Below, piece by piece: positions 8,056 to 16,112 of a DNA stretch of 64,000 nt. The stretch's first letter is position 1; every line of letters begins with the position of its first letter. The position numbers and the translations under genes were made by a program. Below the pieces are notes generated by a model. The model did not search any database, was not told the origin of the DNA, and saw nothing but the letters and a program-made list of their open reading frames with translations. Origin of the DNA: Azomonas macrocytogenes (GTDB taxonomy: Bacteria; Pseudomonadota; Gammaproteobacteria; Pseudomonadales; Pseudomonadaceae); the NCBI RefSeq assembly GCF_014191985.1, contig NZ_JACHXI010000013.1, positions 1-64,000 of the forward strand, written 5' to 3'.

Positions 8056-8589
8056 ATGGCTAGAGGGGTGAACAAGGTCATTCTGGTCGGCAATGTCGGC
8101 GGTGATCCGGAAACCCGCTACCTGCCTAACGGCAATGCGGTAACCAACATCACACTGGCGACCTCCGATAGCTGGAAAGACAAACAGACCGGGCAGTTGC
8201 AGGAGCGTACGGAATGGCATCGTGTAGTGTTTTTCGGCAAGGTTGCCGAGATTGCCGGCGAGTATCTGCGTAAAGGTTCGCAGGTCTATGTCGAGGGCCG
8301 GCTCCAGACGCGCAAATGGCAGGACCAGAGTGGGCAGGACCGCTACACTACTGAAATCGTCGTGGATCTGGGCGGTAGCATGCAGCTTTTGGGCAGCCGT
8401 AATAACGGCGACGATGCTGGCATGCGTCAACCACCTCCGGCTCAGCCGCGCCCGCAGCGAGACCCGCAACAGCAGGCTGCCGCCACACCTAGACAGCAAG
8501 CCGCTGTACCTCACCAGCAAGCACCCGCACCGGCCGCGCAGCAGCCGGCTCCGGACTACGATAATTTTGATGACGATATACCGTTTTAG
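8056..8589 (+). CDS. ssb: Single-stranded DNA-binding protein
   Basis: 177-residue SSB. The N-terminal OB fold (about residues 1-112, starting [19 protein letters not shown]) binds single-stranded DNA. A Pro/Gln-rich linker (about 115-165) and the conserved acidic tail DFDDDIPF follow; the tail docks SSB partners. A strong AAAGGAG site precedes the ATG. The 136 bp between otsA and ssb presumably hold its promoter. Confidence 0.97.
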
Positions 8590-8724
8590 CACCTGTTGAG
8601 GTTTTGCTACGCGCGGCGGAGTTTCGTTTGGCGCAGGCTGGCGTTATTCGTCGTGCATTTGGAATAGCCAAGCTTCTTTTGGGTTCATCGCATTTTCCCG
8701 GGGAATGCAGCCAACCTGTCAGGA

Positions 8725-8752
8725 GCCAGCGCTGCCCAGGCTGAGCGCTGGC
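8725..8752. repeat. Perfect 9-bp inverted repeat
   Basis: GCCAGCGCT (8725-8733) and AGCGCTGGC (8744-8752) are perfect complements around a 10-base loop. No T-run follows on either side, so it is not a typical intrinsic terminator, although it could still end ssb transcription. Confidence 0.55.
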
Positions 8753-8878
8753 GTGGCTATGCTGAAATGCCTTTCCTATTTAAAGTCGGCTGCGTGCAAG
8801 TGCGCGTTTCGGTGCGGTAGTGCCGCTATGGCCGATAGTCGAATCGTGTGTGTCCAAGCCGCAAGCTCATAGCCAGGT

Positions 8879-8909
8879 CGGGAATAAGTTACTTGACTTG
8901 CTTATCCCG
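8879..8909. repeat. Imperfect inverted repeat upstream of the coo operon
   Basis: CGGGAATAAG (8879-8888) pairs with CTTATCCCG (8901-8909) with one bulged A. The loop contains TTGACT, which resembles a -35 box but has no good -10 partner. Function unknown. Confidence 0.4.
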
Positions 8910-9054
8910 TTCAGCTCACGGTTTTTCCTTCATCCTGGTAGACCGGTGGTGAGAGACTCTCGCCTGATAGCGGCCAGTGCCGCACTTCGAAACAATCAAC
9001 GCGATGCAGCGCACTCCTGAGCATCAGTGCTATTTATCTTGATCTGCATGTGAG

Positions 9055-9070
9055 TGTCGGCCAACTGACA
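9055..9070 (-). promoter_or_regulatory. Candidate CooA (CO-sensing CRP-family) binding site
   Basis: The minus strand reads TGTCA-GTTGGC-CGACA, an exact match to the TGTCA-N6-CGACA pattern I recall for Rhodospirillum rubrum CooA. A plus-strand TATGGT at 9093-9098 would place a start near 9104, with the site centred about 42 bp upstream, the class II activator position. The same bases also fit the looser NifA pattern TGT-N10-ACA, but I found no sigma-54 -24/-12 promoter downstream. No cooA gene lies in this window. Confidence 0.6.
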
Positions 9071-9345
9071 GACAGAGGCTGGCTGGCTTCGATATGGTTC
9101 CTTTCAACCCACCTTGGAAAGGAGAGTCCCCTCTCTATGAGAAGGTATCGACCTGCATTCTGGAAACTTATATGAAACGGCCCTGCCTGCCCTTGCTGCC
9201 AGTGGCGTACGAGTGATGATCCGGACACACGCTTGAGAAGACGTGATGAGCCGCATCTGCGAGAAAGCTGCCGATGCGTAAAGATGTTGCGCCGAGCTTT
9301 CGTTGTTACCGCGAAACCGGGTGGGCAAAGGTGAGTCAAGTATGA

Positions 9346-9918
9346 ATGGAGAAGACTGTGTCTAAAACCATCTTCACCGTGGTCGAGAATTGTGTCGCCT
9401 GCAAATCCTGCGAAATCGCCTGCGCGGTCGAACATTCCTGCTCGAAAACCCTGGCGGGAGCCATTCTGGAGACGCCGCTTCCACAGCGACGGATCACCGT
9501 GGAAGGCGTCGGCGCCTACAGCTATCCATCCCGCTGCCAGCATTGCAGCGATGCCTCCTGCATCACTGCCTGCCCGACTGGCGCGATGCAGCGCGATGGC
9601 AATACCGACGCGGTCTTTTCCGATCACGATCGTTGCATCGGTTGCTGGATGTGCGTCGTCGTCTGTCCGTTTGGCGGGGTGACTGCCGATCCGGTCAACA
9701 AAAAAGCCTTGAAATGCGACCGTTGCCCTGAGCGTACGGCCAAGGGCGAGGCACCTGCGTGCGTATCGGCCTGTCCGACTGGCGCGCTCTTGTTCCTGAC
9801 GCCAGAAGAATTCGCGGCGCAGCGTCGGCAAGCAACGGCTCATGCTGCTGTTTGCGGTGAATCGACGACCAAGCTCAACGGCATGGACATCCTACGATCC
9901 TTGAAAGGGGCCAACTGA
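9346..9918 (+). CDS. cooF: CooF-type ferredoxin, four [4Fe-4S] clusters
   Basis: 190-residue iron-sulfur protein that accepts electrons from CO dehydrogenase. Four cysteine motifs are visible in order: CVACKSCEIAC, CQHCSDASCITAC, CIGCWMCVVVC, and CDRC followed by CVSAC, the layout of CooF, HycB and DmsB-type proteins. Two starts are possible. The ATG at 9346 has only a distant AAAGGTGAG. The GTG at 9358 has GGAG with a 6-base spacer and would give a protein starting MSKTIF. It is the first gene of the coo operon and ends 1 bp before cooS, which supports the name. Confidence 0.9.
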   Translation: MEKTVSKTIFTVVENCVACKSCEIACAVEHSCSKTLAGAILETPLPQRRITVEGVGAYSYPSRCQHCSDASCITACPTGAMQRDGNTDAVFSDHDRCIGCWMCVVVCPFGGVTADPVNKKALKCDRCPERTAKGEAPACVSACPTGALLFLTPEEFAAQRRQATAHAAVCGESTTKLNGMDILRSLKGAN

Positions 9919-9919
9919 T

Positions 9920-11821
9920 ATGGACGCTACTATCCTGCCTGTTATCGAAACGGCTCTTCTTCAGGTTTCCGCCGATAAAGGACTGGCCACCGCTCGCGAC
10001 CGCCTGGAAGTCATGAGTCCGCAGTGTGGGTTTGGGGAGTTGGGGACCTGTTGCCGAATTTGCTATATGGGGCCGTGCCGTATCGATCCGTTCGGCAATG
10101 GCCCGAAAACCGGCGTGTGTGGTCTGACTCCCGACGCCATGGTAGCCCGTAACCTGTTGCGCGATACCGTAGGCGGCACCGCCTCGCATGTCGGCCATGC
10201 TCGCCATGTGCTGTTGACGCTGCGTGACACCCTGAAAGGCAAGGCGCCTTATCAGATCAAGGGGGTGTCCAAGGTAATGTCGCTGGCCAAAACCTTCGAT
10301 GTTCCAACCGAAGGCCGGGAGGTGAATGACATCTGCCGCGATCTGGTGAATATCGCTCTGGAAGATTTTGGCCGCCAGGACGATGAACAGCCCAACAATT
10401 GGCTCAGCAAACGCGCTCCAGTGGCCGAGCAGGCACTCTGGAGCAAGTTGGGGCTGATGTATTCCAATCCGCATAACGAAATCGAAACGGCGATGCATGC
10501 CTCTTCCATGGGTAACGACGCCGATCCGTTATCGCTGATGATGCGGGTGCTGAAAATGAGCCTGATCGACGGTTGGACCGGCCTGGCCCTGTGCGTCGAT
10601 CTGCAGGACATCCTGTTCGGCGTGCCGGAAATCGCGGTGACCGAAGCGGCCGTTGGCGTACTGGAGGAAAACAGCGTCAATATTGCGGCCCATGGGCATA
10701 ACCCGGTGCTATCGGAAAAGATTCTCGAATGGGCCGAAAAGCTGGAAGGCGAGGCGCTGGCCGCCGGTTCCGACGGAATCAATGTGGTCGGCGTGTGCTG
10801 CACCGGCAATGAATTGAGCATGCGCCACGGCGTCAAATTGGCGGCGCACAACTCGCAAACCGAGCTGATTCTCGCCACCGGCGCTGTCGATGCCATGGTG
10901 GTGGATATCCAGTGTATCTGGCCGCAACTGGCGCAGGTGGCCAAGTGCTTTGATACGGCGTTCATCACTACCGATGCCATGGTCCGGATTCCCGATGCCC
11001 GGCATATTCCATTCGAGCCACACCATGCCGACGAAAGCGCTCGTGAGATCGTCCAGACCGCCATCGAAGCCTTCCGCCGCCGGCGTGGCAAACCGGTAGA
11101 TATTCCCCAGCTCAAAAGTACTGCGGTCGCTGGCCTGTCAGTCGAAGCCATCATCGATTTGTTGTCCCGGCTGGATGCCGAAGACCCGCTGAAGCCGGTG
11201 CTCGATCAGGTGGCCAATGGCAATATCTTCGGCTTCGTCGGGGTGGTCGGCTGTTCCAGCATCAAATTCCGCGACAACGCCATGACCGAGGAGATGGTCA
11301 AGCATCTCTTGCGGCAGAACGTTCTGGTGCTGACTACCGGTTGCACTGCGCATATCTGCGCTCAGGATGGGCTGATGACCAGTGAGGCGACCTACCGCTA
11401 TTGCGGCGAGGGCCTCAGAAGCGTGCTTGAGATTCTGGGCGAGGCAGCCGGACTCGGCGGCCCGCTGCCACCGGTGTGGCACATGGGGGCTTGTGTCGAT
11501 AACTCGCGTATCGTCGATCTGATGGTCGTGCTGGCCGAGCGACTGGGCGTCAAGGTCGGCCAGCTTCCCGCCGTGGGGTCGGCACCTGAGTTAGTGCAGG
11601 AAAAAGCGGTTTCCATCGGCGGTTCGTTCCTGGCAATGGGGGTTTCCTGTCACATCGCGCCGGCGCCAAAAGTGCTGGGCGGGCCAATGGTCACCAAGCT
11701 GCTCACCGAGGATTTGCAGGATCTGCTCGGCGCGGTGGTCCGGGTCGAGCTGCAGCCCAAGGCCGCAGCAGACTGGATGGTGGCGCATATCGGCGAAAAG
11801 CGTGCGGCGCTCGGCATATGA
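9920..11821 (+). CDS. cooS: Anaerobic nickel carbon-monoxide dehydrogenase catalytic subunit
   Basis: 633-residue Ni-CODH catalysing CO + H2O to CO2 + 2e- + 2H+. The N-terminal cysteines for the D and B clusters are present (Cys36, 44, 45, 48, 53, 67). The NiFe C-cluster ligands are also all visible: the HGHNP histidine (258/260) and Cys293/294, Cys332, Cys445, Cys475 and Cys525, each one residue off Carboxydothermus CODH-II numbering as I recall it. No ligand is missing, so it should be active once nickel is loaded. Length is normal for the family. It follows cooF by 1 bp and overlaps the next gene by ATGA. Enzymes of this class are oxygen-sensitive, which is notable in a pseudomonad. Confidence 0.96.
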   Translation: MDATILPVIETALLQVSADKGLATARDRLEVMSPQCGFGELGTCCRICYMGPCRIDPFGNGPKTGVCGLTPDAMVARNLLRDTVGGTASHVGHARHVLLTLRDTLKGKAPYQIKGVSKVMSLAKTFDVPTEGREVNDICRDLVNIALEDFGRQDDEQPNNWLSKRAPVAEQALWSKLGLMYSNPHNEIETAMHASSMGNDADPLSLMMRVLKMSLIDGWTGLALCVDLQDILFGVPEIAVTEAAVGVLEENSVNIAAHGHNPVLSEKILEWAEKLEGEALAAGSDGINVVGVCCTGNELSMRHGVKLAAHNSQTELILATGAVDAMVVDIQCIWPQLAQVAKCFDTAFITTDAMVRIPDARHIPFEPHHADESAREIVQTAIEAFRRRRGKPVDIPQLKSTAVAGLSVEAIIDLLSRLDAEDPLKPVLDQVANGNIFGFVGVVGCSSIKFRDNAMTEEMVKHLLRQNVLVLTTGCTAHICAQDGLMTSEATYRYCGEGLRSVLEILGEAAGLGGPLPPVWHMGACVDNSRIVDLMVVLAERLGVKVGQLPAVGSAPELVQEKAVSIGGSFLAMGVSCHIAPAPKVLGGPMVTKLLTEDLQDLLGAVVRVELQPKAAADWMVAHIGEKRAALGI

Positions 11822-13053
11822 AGATTGTCATCATTGGCAACGGCCCGGCGGCAATAGCCGCTGCCGAGACTATTCGCGGGCAGGACAGGAGCTGCGAGAT
11901 CGTCATGCTCTCCAGGGAGAGCGTGCCATTTTATTCACCCTGTCCTCTCGCCGAATATGTGGAAGGTAGCGTACCGAAGGATCATCTCTTTCTGCGTGAT
12001 CCGGCTTTCTACAGCCGCAGCGGGATCGATATTCGCTACGGTCGTCCGGTCATACGCATAGAGCCACAAACCCGACAGGTATGGCTGGCAGGAAATGAAG
12101 CCGTCGCATATGACCAGTTACTGATTGCTTCTGGCTCCAAGGCATTCGTTCCACCGATTCCCGGCCTTGCCACCGCCAAAGGCGTTTTCGAACTGAAAAC
12201 CCTGGATGATGCCGAAGGCATTCTGGAGCGCATCAAGACCGCTCGGCGCGCGGTGGTGATCGGTTCCGGTTTCATTGGGCTGGAAGCTGTTCAGGCGCTG
12301 ATCCGGCAAGGGCTTGACGTTACATTGCTGGAAGCTCAGGCGCAGGTTCTGCCAGCCATGCTGGACCGTGAAATGGCGGCCATCGTCCAGCAACGCCTCA
12401 CTGCGCACGGTGTGCAGGTTCATACCGGTTGCGGTGCTGAACGGATTCTCGAAAATGAAAACGGTGTGCGGGCCGTCATGGCGGGTGGCTGTGAAATTCC
12501 TTGCGAACTGGTCATCTGCGCCGCTGGCGTCAGGGCGGATCTTTCAATCCTTGAAGGCAGCGGCATCGCCAGCAATCGGGGCATTCTGGTCAATGACCAC
12601 ATGCAAACCAATGTCGATGGTGTTTTCGCTGCTGGCGATATCATCGAGCGCCCCGACGTGCCGGAAAAATACCGGGTCTTGCCCATCTGGCCGAATGCGG
12701 TATCCACTGGCCGAATTGCGGCGTGGAACATGCTAGGGATCGCCACACGTCACCCGGGGCTGGAAGCGGTCAATGTGGTACGAGTCTTCGATACGCCAAT
12801 CGCTTCGTTCGGGACGCAGACGGCTGAAGACTGCTTGCGCTGGCAAGATGGTAACGGCGCGGTACGCAAGGTTCTGTTGCAAGAGGGACGAGTGATCGGT
12901 GGCCAGTTGATTGGTGAAATCAATGGCACCGGCGTGCTGCATGAAATGATGAAAAAAGGCATCGCTGCCGAGCGATTCGGTGAGGCACTGGCTCATCCCG
13001 GCTTTAGTTATGCTCACTTTATGCAACCATCGAGGGCAGTCAAATGGGCCTGA
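11818..13053 (+). CDS. FAD/NAD(P)-dependent oxidoreductase of the CODH operon
   Basis: 411-residue pyridine-nucleotide oxidoreductase of the rubredoxin-reductase/NADH-oxidase family. It has an N-terminal FAD-binding GNGPAAIAAAE (about residues 7-17), a second nucleotide fold VVIGSGFIGLEA, and the FAAGDI motif. SPCPL contains Cys42, the position of the redox cysteine in NADH oxidase and CoA-disulfide reductase. The gene overlaps cooS by 4 bp and cooC by 10 bp. The inferred role is to move electrons from CooF to NAD(P)+. Similar flavoproteins accompany cooF-cooS in other genomes. Peroxide or oxygen reduction is an alternative. Confidence 0.85.
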   Translation: MKIVIIGNGPAAIAAAETIRGQDRSCEIVMLSRESVPFYSPCPLAEYVEGSVPKDHLFLRDPAFYSRSGIDIRYGRPVIRIEPQTRQVWLAGNEAVAYDQLLIASGSKAFVPPIPGLATAKGVFELKTLDDAEGILERIKTARRAVVIGSGFIGLEAVQALIRQGLDVTLLEAQAQVLPAMLDREMAAIVQQRLTAHGVQVHTGCGAERILENENGVRAVMAGGCEIPCELVICAAGVRADLSILEGSGIASNRGILVNDHMQTNVDGVFAAGDIIERPDVPEKYRVLPIWPNAVSTGRIAAWNMLGIATRHPGLEAVNVVRVFDTPIASFGTQTAEDCLRWQDGNGAVRKVLLQEGRVIGGQLIGEINGTGVLHEMMKKGIAAERFGEALAHPGFSYAHFMQPSRAVKWA

Positions 13054-13850
13054 AAATCGCCATCAGCGGCAAGGGCGGCGTCGGCAAGACGACGCTGACC
13101 GGCTTGCTCGCCCACCATTACGCCAGGCAAGGCCGCCGGGTCCTGGCTATCGATGCCGATCCGTCGCCTTGCCTCGGGCCGGCCCTGGGCTTCGCCGATT
13201 CCGCGCTGTACGACCTCTCGCCGATCTCTGAAATGACGGATCTGATCGCCGAACGTACCGGAAGCGATCCGCGCTCCGGTGGCGGCGGGATGTTCAAGCT
13301 GAATCCCAAGGTTGCCGACATTCCCGATCGCTTCTCCGCCAGTCTGGGAAATATCCGCTTATTGCTGTTGGGGGCCGTGCAAAAAGGCGGGTCGGGCTGT
13401 ATCTGTCCGGCCAGTACCTTGCTGAAGCAACTGGTCCGGCATGTCCTGCTGGACCGCGACGAGGTGGTTCTGCTCGACCTCTATGCTGGCGTCGAGCATC
13501 TTGGACGGGGGACGGCTGAAGCTGTGGATGTCATGCTGGCGGTCGCCGAGCCAACCAATCGCAGCATGCGCACCGTCCGGCAAGTACAGGTCCTGGCCCG
13601 TGATATCGGCATCGACAAGCTCATGCTGGTCGGCAACAAGCTGGCCGGCCCCGAAGATCGGGCCTTCTTTCAGGACGCCTCTGGAAATATCCCGCTGGCG
13701 GGATGCCTGGAGCTGTCACCGGCAGCCGTGACGGCCGACCGTTCCGGTGAGCCTTTGTATGACCTGTCAGCCGAACTGGCCCGGGAGGTCGCCTCCATTG
13801 CCGGGGCCATCGAGCGGTTGGCCGAAACACGCGAGCTTGTAAAGGAGTAA
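13044..13850 (+). CDS. cooC: CO dehydrogenase nickel-insertion ATPase CooC
   Basis: 268-residue MinD/ParA-type ATPase that loads nickel into the CooS active site. The deviant Walker A motif SGKGGVGKTT is at residues 8-17 and AIDADPSP follows at about 35-42. A CxC pair (Cys119, Cys121) matches the dimer-interface metal site described for CooC proteins. It overlaps the flavoprotein gene by 10 bp. Its stop lies within the ribosome-binding region of the next small gene (AAAGGAG just before). Confidence 0.93.
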   Translation: MGLKIAISGKGGVGKTTLTGLLAHHYARQGRRVLAIDADPSPCLGPALGFADSALYDLSPISEMTDLIAERTGSDPRSGGGGMFKLNPKVADIPDRFSASLGNIRLLLLGAVQKGGSGCICPASTLLKQLVRHVLLDRDEVVLLDLYAGVEHLGRGTAEAVDVMLAVAEPTNRSMRTVRQVQVLARDIGIDKLMLVGNKLAGPEDRAFFQDASGNIPLAGCLELSPAAVTADRSGEPLYDLSAELAREVASIAGAIERLAETRELVKE

Positions 13851-13856
13851 ACGACC

Positions 13857-14042
13857 ATGTGCGAGAACTGTAATTGCAGCGCTACATCCTCTGCCGCCAA
13901 TACCGTGAAGCGACCAGACCCCGAACGTGACTATGAGTACGTGCGCGTGGACGGGACGGTGCATCGCCATTCCTATGTGTTGCATGAGGCTGCTCATCAC
14001 CCTCATCTGCATCCCCACGATGAAGTTGATAAAGCCAAGTGA
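13857..14042 (+). CDS. Small Cys- and His-rich putative nickel-binding protein (CooJ-like)
   Basis: 61 residues. The N-terminus is MCENCNC (Cys2, Cys5, Cys7), the CxxCxC arrangement seen at the high-affinity nickel site of E. coli HypB (MCTTCGC). The C-terminal third has eight histidines (36, 38, 43, 47, 48, 50, 52, 54), with the dense stretch HHPHLHPH. R. rubrum keeps nickel with the separate His-rich CooJ; this protein joins a HypB-like head to a CooJ-like tail. AAAGGAG lies about 8 bases before the ATG, and the gene is 6 bp after cooC. Nickel storage or delivery to CooC/CooS is inferred from composition and position. I do not recognise a named family. Confidence 0.75.
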   Translation: MCENCNCSATSSAANTVKRPDPERDYEYVRVDGTVHRHSYVLHEAAHHPHLHPHDEVDKAK

Positions 14043-14080
14043 CGGGGTAGTTATCTATCCCAGGGGCGCGGCGTTGATGT

Positions 14081-14111
14081 CTTTCCTCGCCTGAGGCGAG
14101 TCGATGGAAAG
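14081..14111 (+). terminator. Hairpin after the coo operon, possible terminator
   Basis: CTCGCC (14086-14091) pairs with GGCGAG (14095-14100) around TGA. CTTTCC (14081-14086) can also pair with GGAAAG (14106-14111). No U-tract follows, so termination here is uncertain. The rest of 14043-14274 shows no gene. Confidence 0.45.
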
Positions 14112-14274
14112 GCGCAAACTCGTATTGTTGTGGTTTCTATACTGGAACAAATGAGTTTGCTCTTTTCTACTTTATGCCAGCCATGGGGCGGATCATCGGT
14201 ATTGACTGCCCTGGCAAAAATGTCTCGCCAAAGCCCCGGTCACACTATTGATCAGGGCGATTTTTGCGGATATC

Positions 14275-14610
14275 TCAGCCGTGGATTGCCGCTGCTGCCT
14301 GTTGTTTTCCCAGAAGCAGGGCTTCATAGGGCTCGGCCATCGATTTGATCTGCTCTGCCAGCTCCGGCGGCAGCCATACCATGACCGGCACCAGGCTTTG
14401 CCCCTCGCTTCGATTTTCATTGAAGATTTCGCGTACCTGCTTTGCCGCTGCCTGGACGGCTTGCAAGGATGGTCCGAAATCGTCAACCAGTTCGAGCGGC
14501 CGGCGACCTTCGACCAGAATGGCATACGCCGCTTCGACGGTACCGATGGGCAAGCTTCGCAAGGCGGGTGAGAGTTGTTCCCACTGTTCGACGGTATATT
14601 CAGGGTGCAT
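14275..14610 (-). CDS. TrfB/KorA-related DNA-binding protein
   Basis: 111 residues from the ATG at 14610, which is preceded by GGAG with a 9-base spacer. The order of conserved segments matches KorA/TrfB repressors of IncP plasmids: an N-terminal helix (YTVEQWEQL), LPIGTVEAAYAILVEGRRP, a helix-turn-helix region around SLQAVQAAAKQVREIF, and the LVPVMVWLPPELAEQIKSM strand-helix end. KorA binds palindromic operators on plasmids. On a chromosome it may regulate a neighbour or be a relic of plasmid or ICE integration beside the coo genes. A longer minus-strand frame (to 15153) is an artefact running into the transporter gene. Confidence 0.72.
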   Translation of the reverse strand: MHPEYTVEQWEQLSPALRSLPIGTVEAAYAILVEGRRPLELVDDFGPSLQAVQAAAKQVREIFNENRSEGQSLVPVMVWLPPELAEQIKSMAEPYEALLLGKQQAAAAIHG

Positions 14611-14777
14611 GTGAATCGTCTCCAGAATATCGAGTGTCTGTGAACCGAAATGCTGAAATGCTTCGATTACAGCTGACAGCCTACAAATCGAGGGCGTTCC
14701 GTGCTGTTCGTCAATAGTCGAATGCCGGTCATGACGCCTGATGTGGCATGGCAATACCCGCTGCGGACAAGGGGTGA

Positions 14778-16112
14778 TTAACTGGCGCGAGCGGCTTCTT
14801 TGGGCTCGCCAGCTTCTGTTGCAAGCGGAGCTTGATCGGTACGGCTGCCCAGATACCAGCCCAGCAGCCCCCAGACAGCGGCACAGGCGGCACCGACCAG
14901 TGCCGCCAGCCAGGCCCCCTGGCCCAGCATGTCCAGCAGGTTCTTGGCCCAGCCGCTGATGGCATCGCCAGCGCGGTAGATCACCGTATCGATGAAATTC
15001 TTCGCCTTGTATTTGGTTTCCGCATCCAGGGGAGCGAACAGCATTTCCCGGCCTGGACGCACAAAGGCGTATTCGCCGATACGCCGGACGATCATGAGCG
15101 CCGCCAGTACACTGAAGGTCGGGAGCAGCGCGAGGGCCAGGAAACCCAGGCACATCAACGCAGGTACGCAGGCCAGTAATACGTGTACCCCCAGACGCTG
15201 GGCAATGCGGCCGGTAATGAATATCTGTGAGAGCAGCGCGCCGGCCTGCACCACGAAATCGATCAGGCCAAACACGCGAACCTGCTGGTTACGGTCTGGA
15301 AACAGCTCCGACACCAGACGTGCCTGCTCGAAATAGAGGAAAGTGCTGACTGTCGCCAGCAGGATCACGAAAACCCCGACGCCGATCAGATAAGGCGAAC
15401 GCAGCACGCGGGTCAGGCCACTGAACGGATTGCCCGGGACCGGGCTACGCGGATTTTCGGAATGCGCAGCGCCAGGGCGACCGGCCCCCTGGATATCGCG
15501 CCAGTGCATCAGGTAATGCTTGATCGCAATCGCCACCGCCAGTAGGACGGCGGAGATCACCATCAGGCCGGATTGCCCGACTGCTTCCACCAATAGAGTG
15601 CTCAAGGCCGGCCCGGTCAAGCCGCCGACACTGGCGCCGGCAGCGATGAAGGCGAACAGGCGCTTGGCCTGCGGTGCATCGAATACATCGGCCATGAGGC
15701 TCCAGGCCACCGAGACGACGAACAGGTTGTAGACCGAAATCCAGACGTAGAACACCCGGGCCAGCCAGACGCTTTCGCCAAAGTTGCCGAAAAAGCTGGC
15801 GAACAGCAGCAGGTTGAGACAGAAAAAGCCATACACCCAATCGATGAAATAGGTTCGCGGTACGCTGGAGTTGAGCCAGGCGAACAGCGGCACGGCCAGC
15901 AGCATCACCACGAAGGTGGCAGTAAACAGCCATTGCAGGTTTTCCACGCCCCCCATGATGCCCATGGATTCGCGAATCGGCCGCAGCATGAAATAGCCAG
16001 CGAACAGGCAGAAGAACAGCGCAAAACCGGACCATGTTGCCAGCAGCTCGCCAGGTTCGGCATTGATCAGGTTAGCCAGGCGCCTGGGCAATGGTTGCTG
16101 GGTCGAAGACAT
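14778..16112 (-). CDS. MFS carrier of the ATP/ADP (NTP/NDP) translocase-like family
   Basis: 444 residues from the ATG at 16112, which has a good GAGGAG site; the in-frame TTG at 16130 is less likely. About 12 transmembrane segments are visible. The N-terminal GYFMLRPIRESMGIMGG and the later PGREMLFAPLDAETKYKAKNFIDT are typical of the NTP/NDP exchanger-like MFS branch found in many free-living proteobacteria. The true substrate there is unknown, and ATP import is not implied. It lies upstream of the KorA-like gene on the same strand with a 167-bp gap. Confidence 0.78.
   Translation of the reverse strand: MSSTQQPLPRRLANLINAEPGELLATWSGFALFFCLFAGYFMLRPIRESMGIMGGVENLQWLFTATFVVMLLAVPLFAWLNSSVPRTYFIDWVYGFFCLNLLLFASFFGNFGESVWLARVFYVWISVYNLFVVSVAWSLMADVFDAPQAKRLFAFIAAGASVGGLTGPALSTLLVEAVGQSGLMVISAVLLAVAIAIKHYLMHWRDIQGAGRPGAAHSENPRSPVPGNPFSGLTRVLRSPYLIGVGVFVILLATVSTFLYFEQARLVSELFPDRNQQVRVFGLIDFVVQAGALLSQIFITGRIAQRLGVHVLLACVPALMCLGFLALALLPTFSVLAALMIVRRIGEYAFVRPGREMLFAPLDAETKYKAKNFIDTVIYRAGDAISGWAKNLLDMLGQGAWLAALVGAACAAVWGLLGWYLGSRTDQAPLATEAGEPKEAARAS

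Follow-up and report, generated by a model that had tools for sequence, protein, structure and literature searches.

A small protein encoded directly after cooC in Azomonas macrocytogenes and its relatives, a probable nickel-binding accessory protein of Ni-CODH

The coo operon of Azomonas macrocytogenes ends with a very small gene, here called orf61, and the question it raises is what a 61-residue protein with cysteines at its head and histidines in its tail could contribute to a Ni-CODH. In Rhodospirillum rubrum, mutants of cooC, cooT and cooJ require added nickel (PMC6006190). CooC, CooJ and CooT are also the maturases named in a survey of genomic contexts that includes a tree of 1376 CODHs; its main text leaves Azotobacter unmentioned (PMC13056359). 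That CooC may have unidentified helpers where CooT and CooJ are missing has been left open in PMC4257681. Here, we have analysed a window of 64,000 nucleotides, the whole stretch of DNA under study, to which all plain positions refer.

The operon of the window has the order cooF-cooS-FNOR-cooC, with orf61 as its final gene. Its features are the following.

9346..9918, + strand: cooF-like 4Fe-4S electron-transfer protein (ferredoxin-type families, all listed matches below cut-offs)
9920..11821, + strand: cooS, Ni-CODH catalytic subunit (TIGR01702, 618 bits, cut-off 478)
11818..13053, + strand: FNOR, FAD/NAD(P) oxidoreductase (oxidoreductase families, below their cut-offs)
13044..13850, + strand: cooC, CODH maturation ATPase (150 bits to CooC of C. 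hydrogenoformans, 3kje)
13398..13406, + strand: C119-I-C121 of CooC, aligned to C112-x-C114 of C. hydrogenoformans CooC
13841..13847, + strand: AAAGGAG, ribosome-binding-like, upstream of orf61 and within the 3' end of cooC
13857..14042, + strand: orf61, 61 aa, with a CxxCxC head, a DGTV core and a His-rich tail
13860..13877, + strand: Cys head (residues 2-7, C-E-N-C-N-C), codons; C2, C5 and C7 invariant in 9/9 orthologs
13950..13961, + strand: DGTV core (residues 32-35), codons; its D and G are invariant in 9/9 orthologs
13962..14018, + strand: His-rich tail, residues 36-54, 8 His; varies among species and is lost in G001

The window CooS can be aligned with a solved CODH across almost its full length, and it retains the motifs HGH.P, CCTGNE, VD.QC, VGC, TTGC and MG.C, which we take to be the C-cluster ligands. 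CooC likewise retains a CxC metal site: in the alignment with 3kje, its C119 and C121 correspond to C112 and C114 of C. hydrogenoformans CooC.

orf61 is a genuine gene that is conserved and linked to CODH. The initial annotation had read it as an open reading frame of 61 residues that starts with MCENCNC and has eight histidines in residues 36-54, and this is confirmed at 13857-14042 on the + strand. The protein is MCENCNCSATSSAANTVKRPDPERDYEYVRVDGTVHRHSYVLHEAAHHPHLHPHDEVDKAK; its three cysteines are residues 2, 5 and 7, and all of its eight histidines fall within residues 36-54. A gap of 6 nt separates it from cooC, the stop of which is at 13850. Since the open frame adds just two codons upstream of the ATG (a 63-residue open frame), the start codon is unambiguous. 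The composition of the protein is beyond chance, because among the 718 stop-to-stop frames of at least 50 aa on both strands of the window orf61 alone combines a CxxCxC with at least eight histidines per 19 residues. Taken singly, this density of histidines is found in 1/718 frames and any CxxCxC in 4/718. When both strands of the window and of nine other loci were scanned for ORFs of at least 30 aa that start with a CxxCxC, nine matches were found, one per coo locus (n=9) and each directly after cooC. The single outgroup locus scanned, that of Acetoanaerobium (L082), had no such ORF, and the gene after its cooC relative is presumably fhs. Codon comparison gave a dN/dS of 0.12-0.26 in 6/6 pairs of the Azotobacter orthologs (n=4), indicating that these copies are under purifying selection. 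In pairs with the window or G003, synonymous sites were saturated or dN/dS was 0.22-0.45; G001, G678 and G758 were left out of the comparison.

Orthologs of orf61 were found in nine species, the window included. Seven of them belong to the family of the window organism, namely the window organism itself, G001 and G003 of the same genus, A. chroococcum, A. beijerinckii, A. vinelandii and G065, and the remaining two, G678 and G758, come from elsewhere in the phylum. Each species was counted once, giving nine in total, since G019, G034 and G076 duplicate the named Azotobacter records, with orf61 proteins identical to those of A. chroococcum (L036), A. beijerinckii (L037) and A. vinelandii (L035), respectively. 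Comparison by tblastn showed that the order cooF-cooS-FNOR-cooC is kept in 9/9 loci (the window, L035-L037 and L051-L055), with orf61 next. The start of orf61 lies at -8 to +36 nt relative to the cooC stop in 9/9 orthologs, and the two genes overlap in G003 and G758. Eight of the nine are the window protein itself or its tblastn match; the exception is the ortholog of G758, which has no tblastn match from the window protein at E<=0.01 and was identified via position and motif. The initial annotation had placed orf61 last in the coo operon, directly after cooC, and had named orthologs always lying away from coo genes as evidence against its reading. The placement is borne out in the window, and all nine orthologs directly follow cooC. 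Being encoded with cooC and cooS, a feature of the Ni-CODH accessory class, is thus found for orf61 in 9/9 loci. The weak matches L005 and L007 turned out to be orthologs after cooC. Two others, L004 and L008, were rejected as orthologs, having no adjoining cooC (L004 has a masked stretch), and L026 is a second weak match in the genome of the window, at E 0.24.

How closely orf61 follows CODH was seen in wider draws of genomes. A CooS protein search found cooS in 7/398 genomes of the family. An orf61 profile, built from three orf61 sequences, matched at E<=0.001 in 6/398 family genomes, all of them within the seven that have cooS. In the seventh, G001, which the profile did not pick up, a clear ortholog follows cooC, as judged from position and sequence, so that orf61 and cooS occur together in 7/7 cooS genomes of the family draw (n=398, the cooS and orf61 draws being taken to be identical genomes). 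No orf61 was found at E<=0.001 in the remaining 391 family genomes, where the best 15 candidates per genome were scored with a profile that can miss divergent members; this absence is of limited sensitivity, because the profile missed G001 and scoring stopped at the best 15 candidates. G002, a genome of this genus with 78% completeness, lacks both cooS and orf61 (the latter at E<=0.001). In a phylum-wide draw, cooS was present in 3/398 genomes and orf61 in all three. The two distant cooS genomes, G678 and G758, show CooS identities of 80% and 72%. We should point out that the co-occurrence represents few independent events, since seven of the nine species fall in two genera of one family. Searches for cooS at E<=1e-60 returned one genome each in a class draw (1/350), in the order of G758 (1/78) and in the family of G678 (1/1), each time the one already known. 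TIGR01702 scored above its cut-off in 1/293 genomes of the order, which was the window's own, and a plasmid collection held one record with a cooC relative, from Acetoanaerobium. The scan of the genome collection required MCENCNC or an E/H-rich peptide, so that members of the MCExCGC type outside the sampled genomes would escape it.

Which parts of orf61 have been kept? Over the nine orthologs, which range in size from 59 to 123 aa, M1, C2, C5, C7, D32 and G33 alone are invariant, and the core reads DG[ST][VA] in 9/9, even where the histidines are lost. Histidine counts are 8 for the window protein, 12 for G003, 15-16 for the Azotobacter copies, 15 for G678, 8 for G758 and 2 for G001. At least six histidines within 19 residues, a His-rich stretch of the kind known from CooJ, are found in 8/9 orthologs, the window protein among them. 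The exception is G001, with a maximum of 1 in such a stretch, whose ortholog is MCEDCHCSDLKPNTRSVLKPRQGRPYIHIDGSVRYQPIQKEQEPVSRADTLENGEVGKL and has 2 His in total. Judged from this alignment, the family is defined by its Cys head together with its DG core, the His tail being an add-on, and since the tail is absent in G001 it cannot be essential everywhere. The ortholog of G001 (L005:1501-1677, + strand) is a natural tail-less variant that retains MCEDCHC and YIHIDGSV with nearly all histidines gone, while the HypB encoded in this genome has stayed rich in histidine. The ortholog of G758 (L052:6365-6733, - strand), at 123 aa, is twice as long and has a His-poor C-terminal extension after its DGTA core.

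Orthologs rich in histidine show an alternating His-x-His on either side of the DG turn. Two AlphaFold2 runs both returned a strand-DGT-strand with low confidence (mean pLDDT 53 and 52). As both runs were built on the same four sequences, the strand-DGT-strand is a hint only, and so are the two facing rows of histidines that would follow if this weakly predicted strand-turn-strand is correct. This small protein is probably mostly disordered. One could argue that the DG[ST][VA] hairpin and the Cys head make orf61 a docking or structural peptide, which binds CooC or CooS and steers assembly, with metal being secondary. The persistence of the core in all nine orthologs, also where the histidines are lost, speaks for this reading, and both models place the strand-turn-strand at the core, if with low confidence. 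It fits poorly with the three invariant, HypB-spaced cysteines, which are hardly explicable without metal or redox chemistry, and with mean pLDDT values this low, and we regard it as very unlikely.

Searches for relatives gave no useful match of orf61 in Pfam, NCBIfam or PDB. PDB sequence searches returned no CooJ, HypB or CooT match. Two PDB matches to the PDPERD stretch, both SAKe6 repeat proteins, which we take to be designed, were dismissed as chance. Among the matches listed in CODH- and HypB-related literature, a body of text from which most subscription papers were out of scope, we found no published description of the orf61 protein.

Among known nickel proteins of CODH, CooJ has a mass of 12.6 kDa; its C-terminal domain contains 16 histidines, and each monomer binds 4 Ni (PMC6006190). 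orf61 shares with it the small size, a His-rich part and a place alongside cooC in a CODH operon. Unlike CooJ, compared here via its description and via HWxxHxxxH, presumably its conserved motif, orf61 has an N-terminal CxxCxC and a His tail that may be missing, as in G001. That motif occurs in 0/9 orf61 orthologs. To our knowledge, CooT is without a CxxCxC. Like CooT, a CODH accessory protein, orf61 is very small and has a Cys2, the residue implicated in nickel binding by CooT, but CooT is a folded beta protein (PMC6006190) and orf61 has no match to its family (PF10133) in Pfam at E<=10. PF10133 was found in 0/9 genomes at E<=0.001. Similar histidine patterns are known from Ni-CODHs of clade B-3, the His-rich C-terminal tails of which have been likened to the C-terminus of CooJ and the N-terminus of HypB (PMC6344411). 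Their extension has His-x-His repeats as in orf61; that tail, however, is part of the CODH, whereas orf61 is a separate protein after cooC with a Cys head.

The closest likeness is to HypB. In E. coli HypB, a sub-picomolar Ni site is formed by Cys2, Cys5 and Cys7 together with the N-terminal amine, and the high-affinity CXXCGC site is described as unique to E. coli HypB (PMC7055735). Because of this uniqueness, extending the nickel site of HypB to orf61 is guesswork based on the spacing. The CxxCxC spacing of HypB, at residues 2, 5 and 7, is present in 9/9 orf61 orthologs, of which three have the strict CxxCGC and six have CxxCNC or CxxCHC. HypB itself scores above the cut-off of TIGR00073 elsewhere in 8/9 genomes. 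It starts with MCTxCGC in 8/8 genomes with a full HypB, and a His run follows in 7/8. The HypB of the window organism (C20, L062) has lost most of its N-terminal histidines (MCTICGCETGEARIEGQAYRVQTQERIRHSHMN), unlike the seven other HypBs. Like the HypB arm, orf61 starts with MCxxCxC, has a His-rich stretch after it in most species and, as we propose, would serve the P-loop NTPase of a nickel enzyme, which is HypB itself in the one case and CooC in the other. CooC and HypB are alike in architecture (PMC9164220). Unlike HypB, orf61 is a separate protein of 59-123 aa without the GTPase domain (TIGR00073 gave no match, in keeping with the NCBIfam and Pfam searches), and the strict CxxCGC is found in just 3/9 of its orthologs. 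Descent from HypB was considered and rejected, the similarity of the tails being not consistently above residue-shuffled controls. For the window tail against HypB tails, p was 0.00 for G065 and G001 and 0.16-0.20 for three others, while the G001 ortholog reached p 0.05 at best. As His-richness drives these tail scores, we claim no homology between orf61 and HypB. The nearest analogue of orf61 is an N-terminal HypB arm standing on its own, and on the simplest reading orf61 would be a free arm of this type that binds nickel and works for CooC.

These comparisons bear on the initial annotation, which had seen in orf61 a HypB-like head and a CooJ-like tail, joined in a combination of no named family. 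The head holds as far as the cysteine spacing goes, invariant in 9/9; the window protein has CxxCNC and not the strict CxxCGC. Kinship with CooJ is not supported, there being no useful family or PDB match, a motif that occurs in 0/9 orthologs and a tail that is lost in G001 of the same genus. The route suggested in the annotation, in which the tail would capture nickel and the thiolates would pass it to CooC, stays hypothetical. As to the combination, no family match was found, but HypB itself joins both parts. It seems that orf61 combines known parts, probably as a nickel accessory, and we found no name for a protein of such kind.

The surroundings of the operon point to nickel as well. A permease of the nickel/cobalt families adjoins the coo genes in 7/9 loci. 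HupE is encoded downstream of orf61 in A. chroococcum, A. vinelandii and G065, and just upstream of cooF in G001 and A. beijerinckii (L037:839-1342, with cooF from 1486). NicO (PF03824; L052:5496-6332, - strand) is the next gene after orf61 in G758, and CbiM is found ~1 kb upstream of the coo operon, on the opposite strand, in G003 (L054:2114-2761, - strand). No nickel permease was found beside the coo genes of the window among the flanking ORFs tested (8 + 10 proteins); the single HupE of this genome is on another contig, ~5 kb from hypB. In G678, where HupE was the permease family searched, the genome has none.

We consider it likely that orf61 is a nickel-binding accessory protein dedicated to the Ni-CODH of its own operon. 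Our best reading is that it would take the part played in R. rubrum by CooT and CooJ, working with CooC. The same permeases, together with the dense histidines of 8/9 orthologs, would also suit a nickel store or buffer that sequesters the metal cell-wide, in the manner of Hpn or of the HypB reservoir, without specific transfer to CooC or CooS. Such a store is unlikely, in that conservation is lowest in the His tail, which has gone from G001 whereas the Cys head and DG core stay, the linkage observed is to cooC and cooS, and no second copy of orf61 was found at E<=0.001 in the six profile-matching genomes.

The metal need not be nickel. CxxCxC and His-rich peptides are good binders of Zn and Cu, and peptides rich in Cys and His bind Co as well. 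It is conceivable that orf61 handles another metal, Zn or Cu, and so protects or regulates CODH or CooC, e.g. by stripping Zn from the CxC of CooC. A gene for a PCu(A)C copper chaperone is present upstream of the coo operon in G003 (L054:3046-3552, + strand), which would agree with this idea, as would the competition of Zn with Ni in C. hydrogenoformans CooC (PMC6006190). Yet the neighbouring permeases, in the 7/9 loci that have them, are of nickel/cobalt families, and E. coli HypB, the characterised protein with cysteines so spaced at its N-terminus, is a nickel protein (PMC7055735). We judge another metal to be quite unlikely and infer that the metal is nickel, not Zn or Cu.

How could a nickel-binding accessory protein of this size work? 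We propose that Met1 is removed and that the thiolates of Cys2, Cys5 and Cys7, together with the free amine of Cys2, would then hold nickel in a four-coordinate Ni(S)3(N) site, as in E. coli HypB. The His-x-His rows that flank the DG turn in most orthologs may act as a variable nickel buffer of presumed low affinity, and could collect nickel imported by the permeases (HupE, NicO, CbiM) encoded beside most operons. The Cys head would then offer Ni either to the CxC of dimeric CooC or to apo-CooS that has been prepared by CooC. In effect, the ATPase CooC would be served by a metal-binding arm of the HypB type that is encoded as a protein in its own right. Which of the two recipients is the more plausible depends on how CooC is viewed. 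In C. hydrogenoformans CooC, C112 and C114 bind Zn at the dimer interface, and Ni competes with Zn; R. rubrum CooC shows no tight binding of Ni, and whether CooC carries Ni is disputed. The authors of that work prefer CooC to be a folding factor, with Ni supplied, according to the organism, by CooC, by further proteins or in free form (PMC6006190). If CooC is a folding factor, orf61 could load CooS directly.

A bolder version, possible but doubtful, is that orf61 is a split HypB analogue, the CxxCxC and His ladder of which act in trans on dimeric CooC. The DG[ST][VA] hairpin would then be the docking piece and the His rows an exchangeable reservoir. If this is true, CooC and orf61 together would do for CODH what a single HypB chain does for hydrogenase.

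As a probable accessory protein dedicated to its own Ni-CODH, orf61 is a concrete candidate for nickel delivery to CODH in genomes where CooT was not found, and it might aid the nickel loading of recombinant CODH. One of its orthologs is encoded at L035:6001-6222 in A. vinelandii, a laboratory organism.

Predicted signals around the operon (8500-15200) were not above chance, with 1 promoter against 2.4 expected and 8 terminators against 6.1 expected (sd 2.2). A stretch of ~750 bp in the window (8590-9345), in which the ORFs that lie fully inside are at most 74 aa, separates ssb from cooF and is a possible place for CO- or nickel-responsive control.
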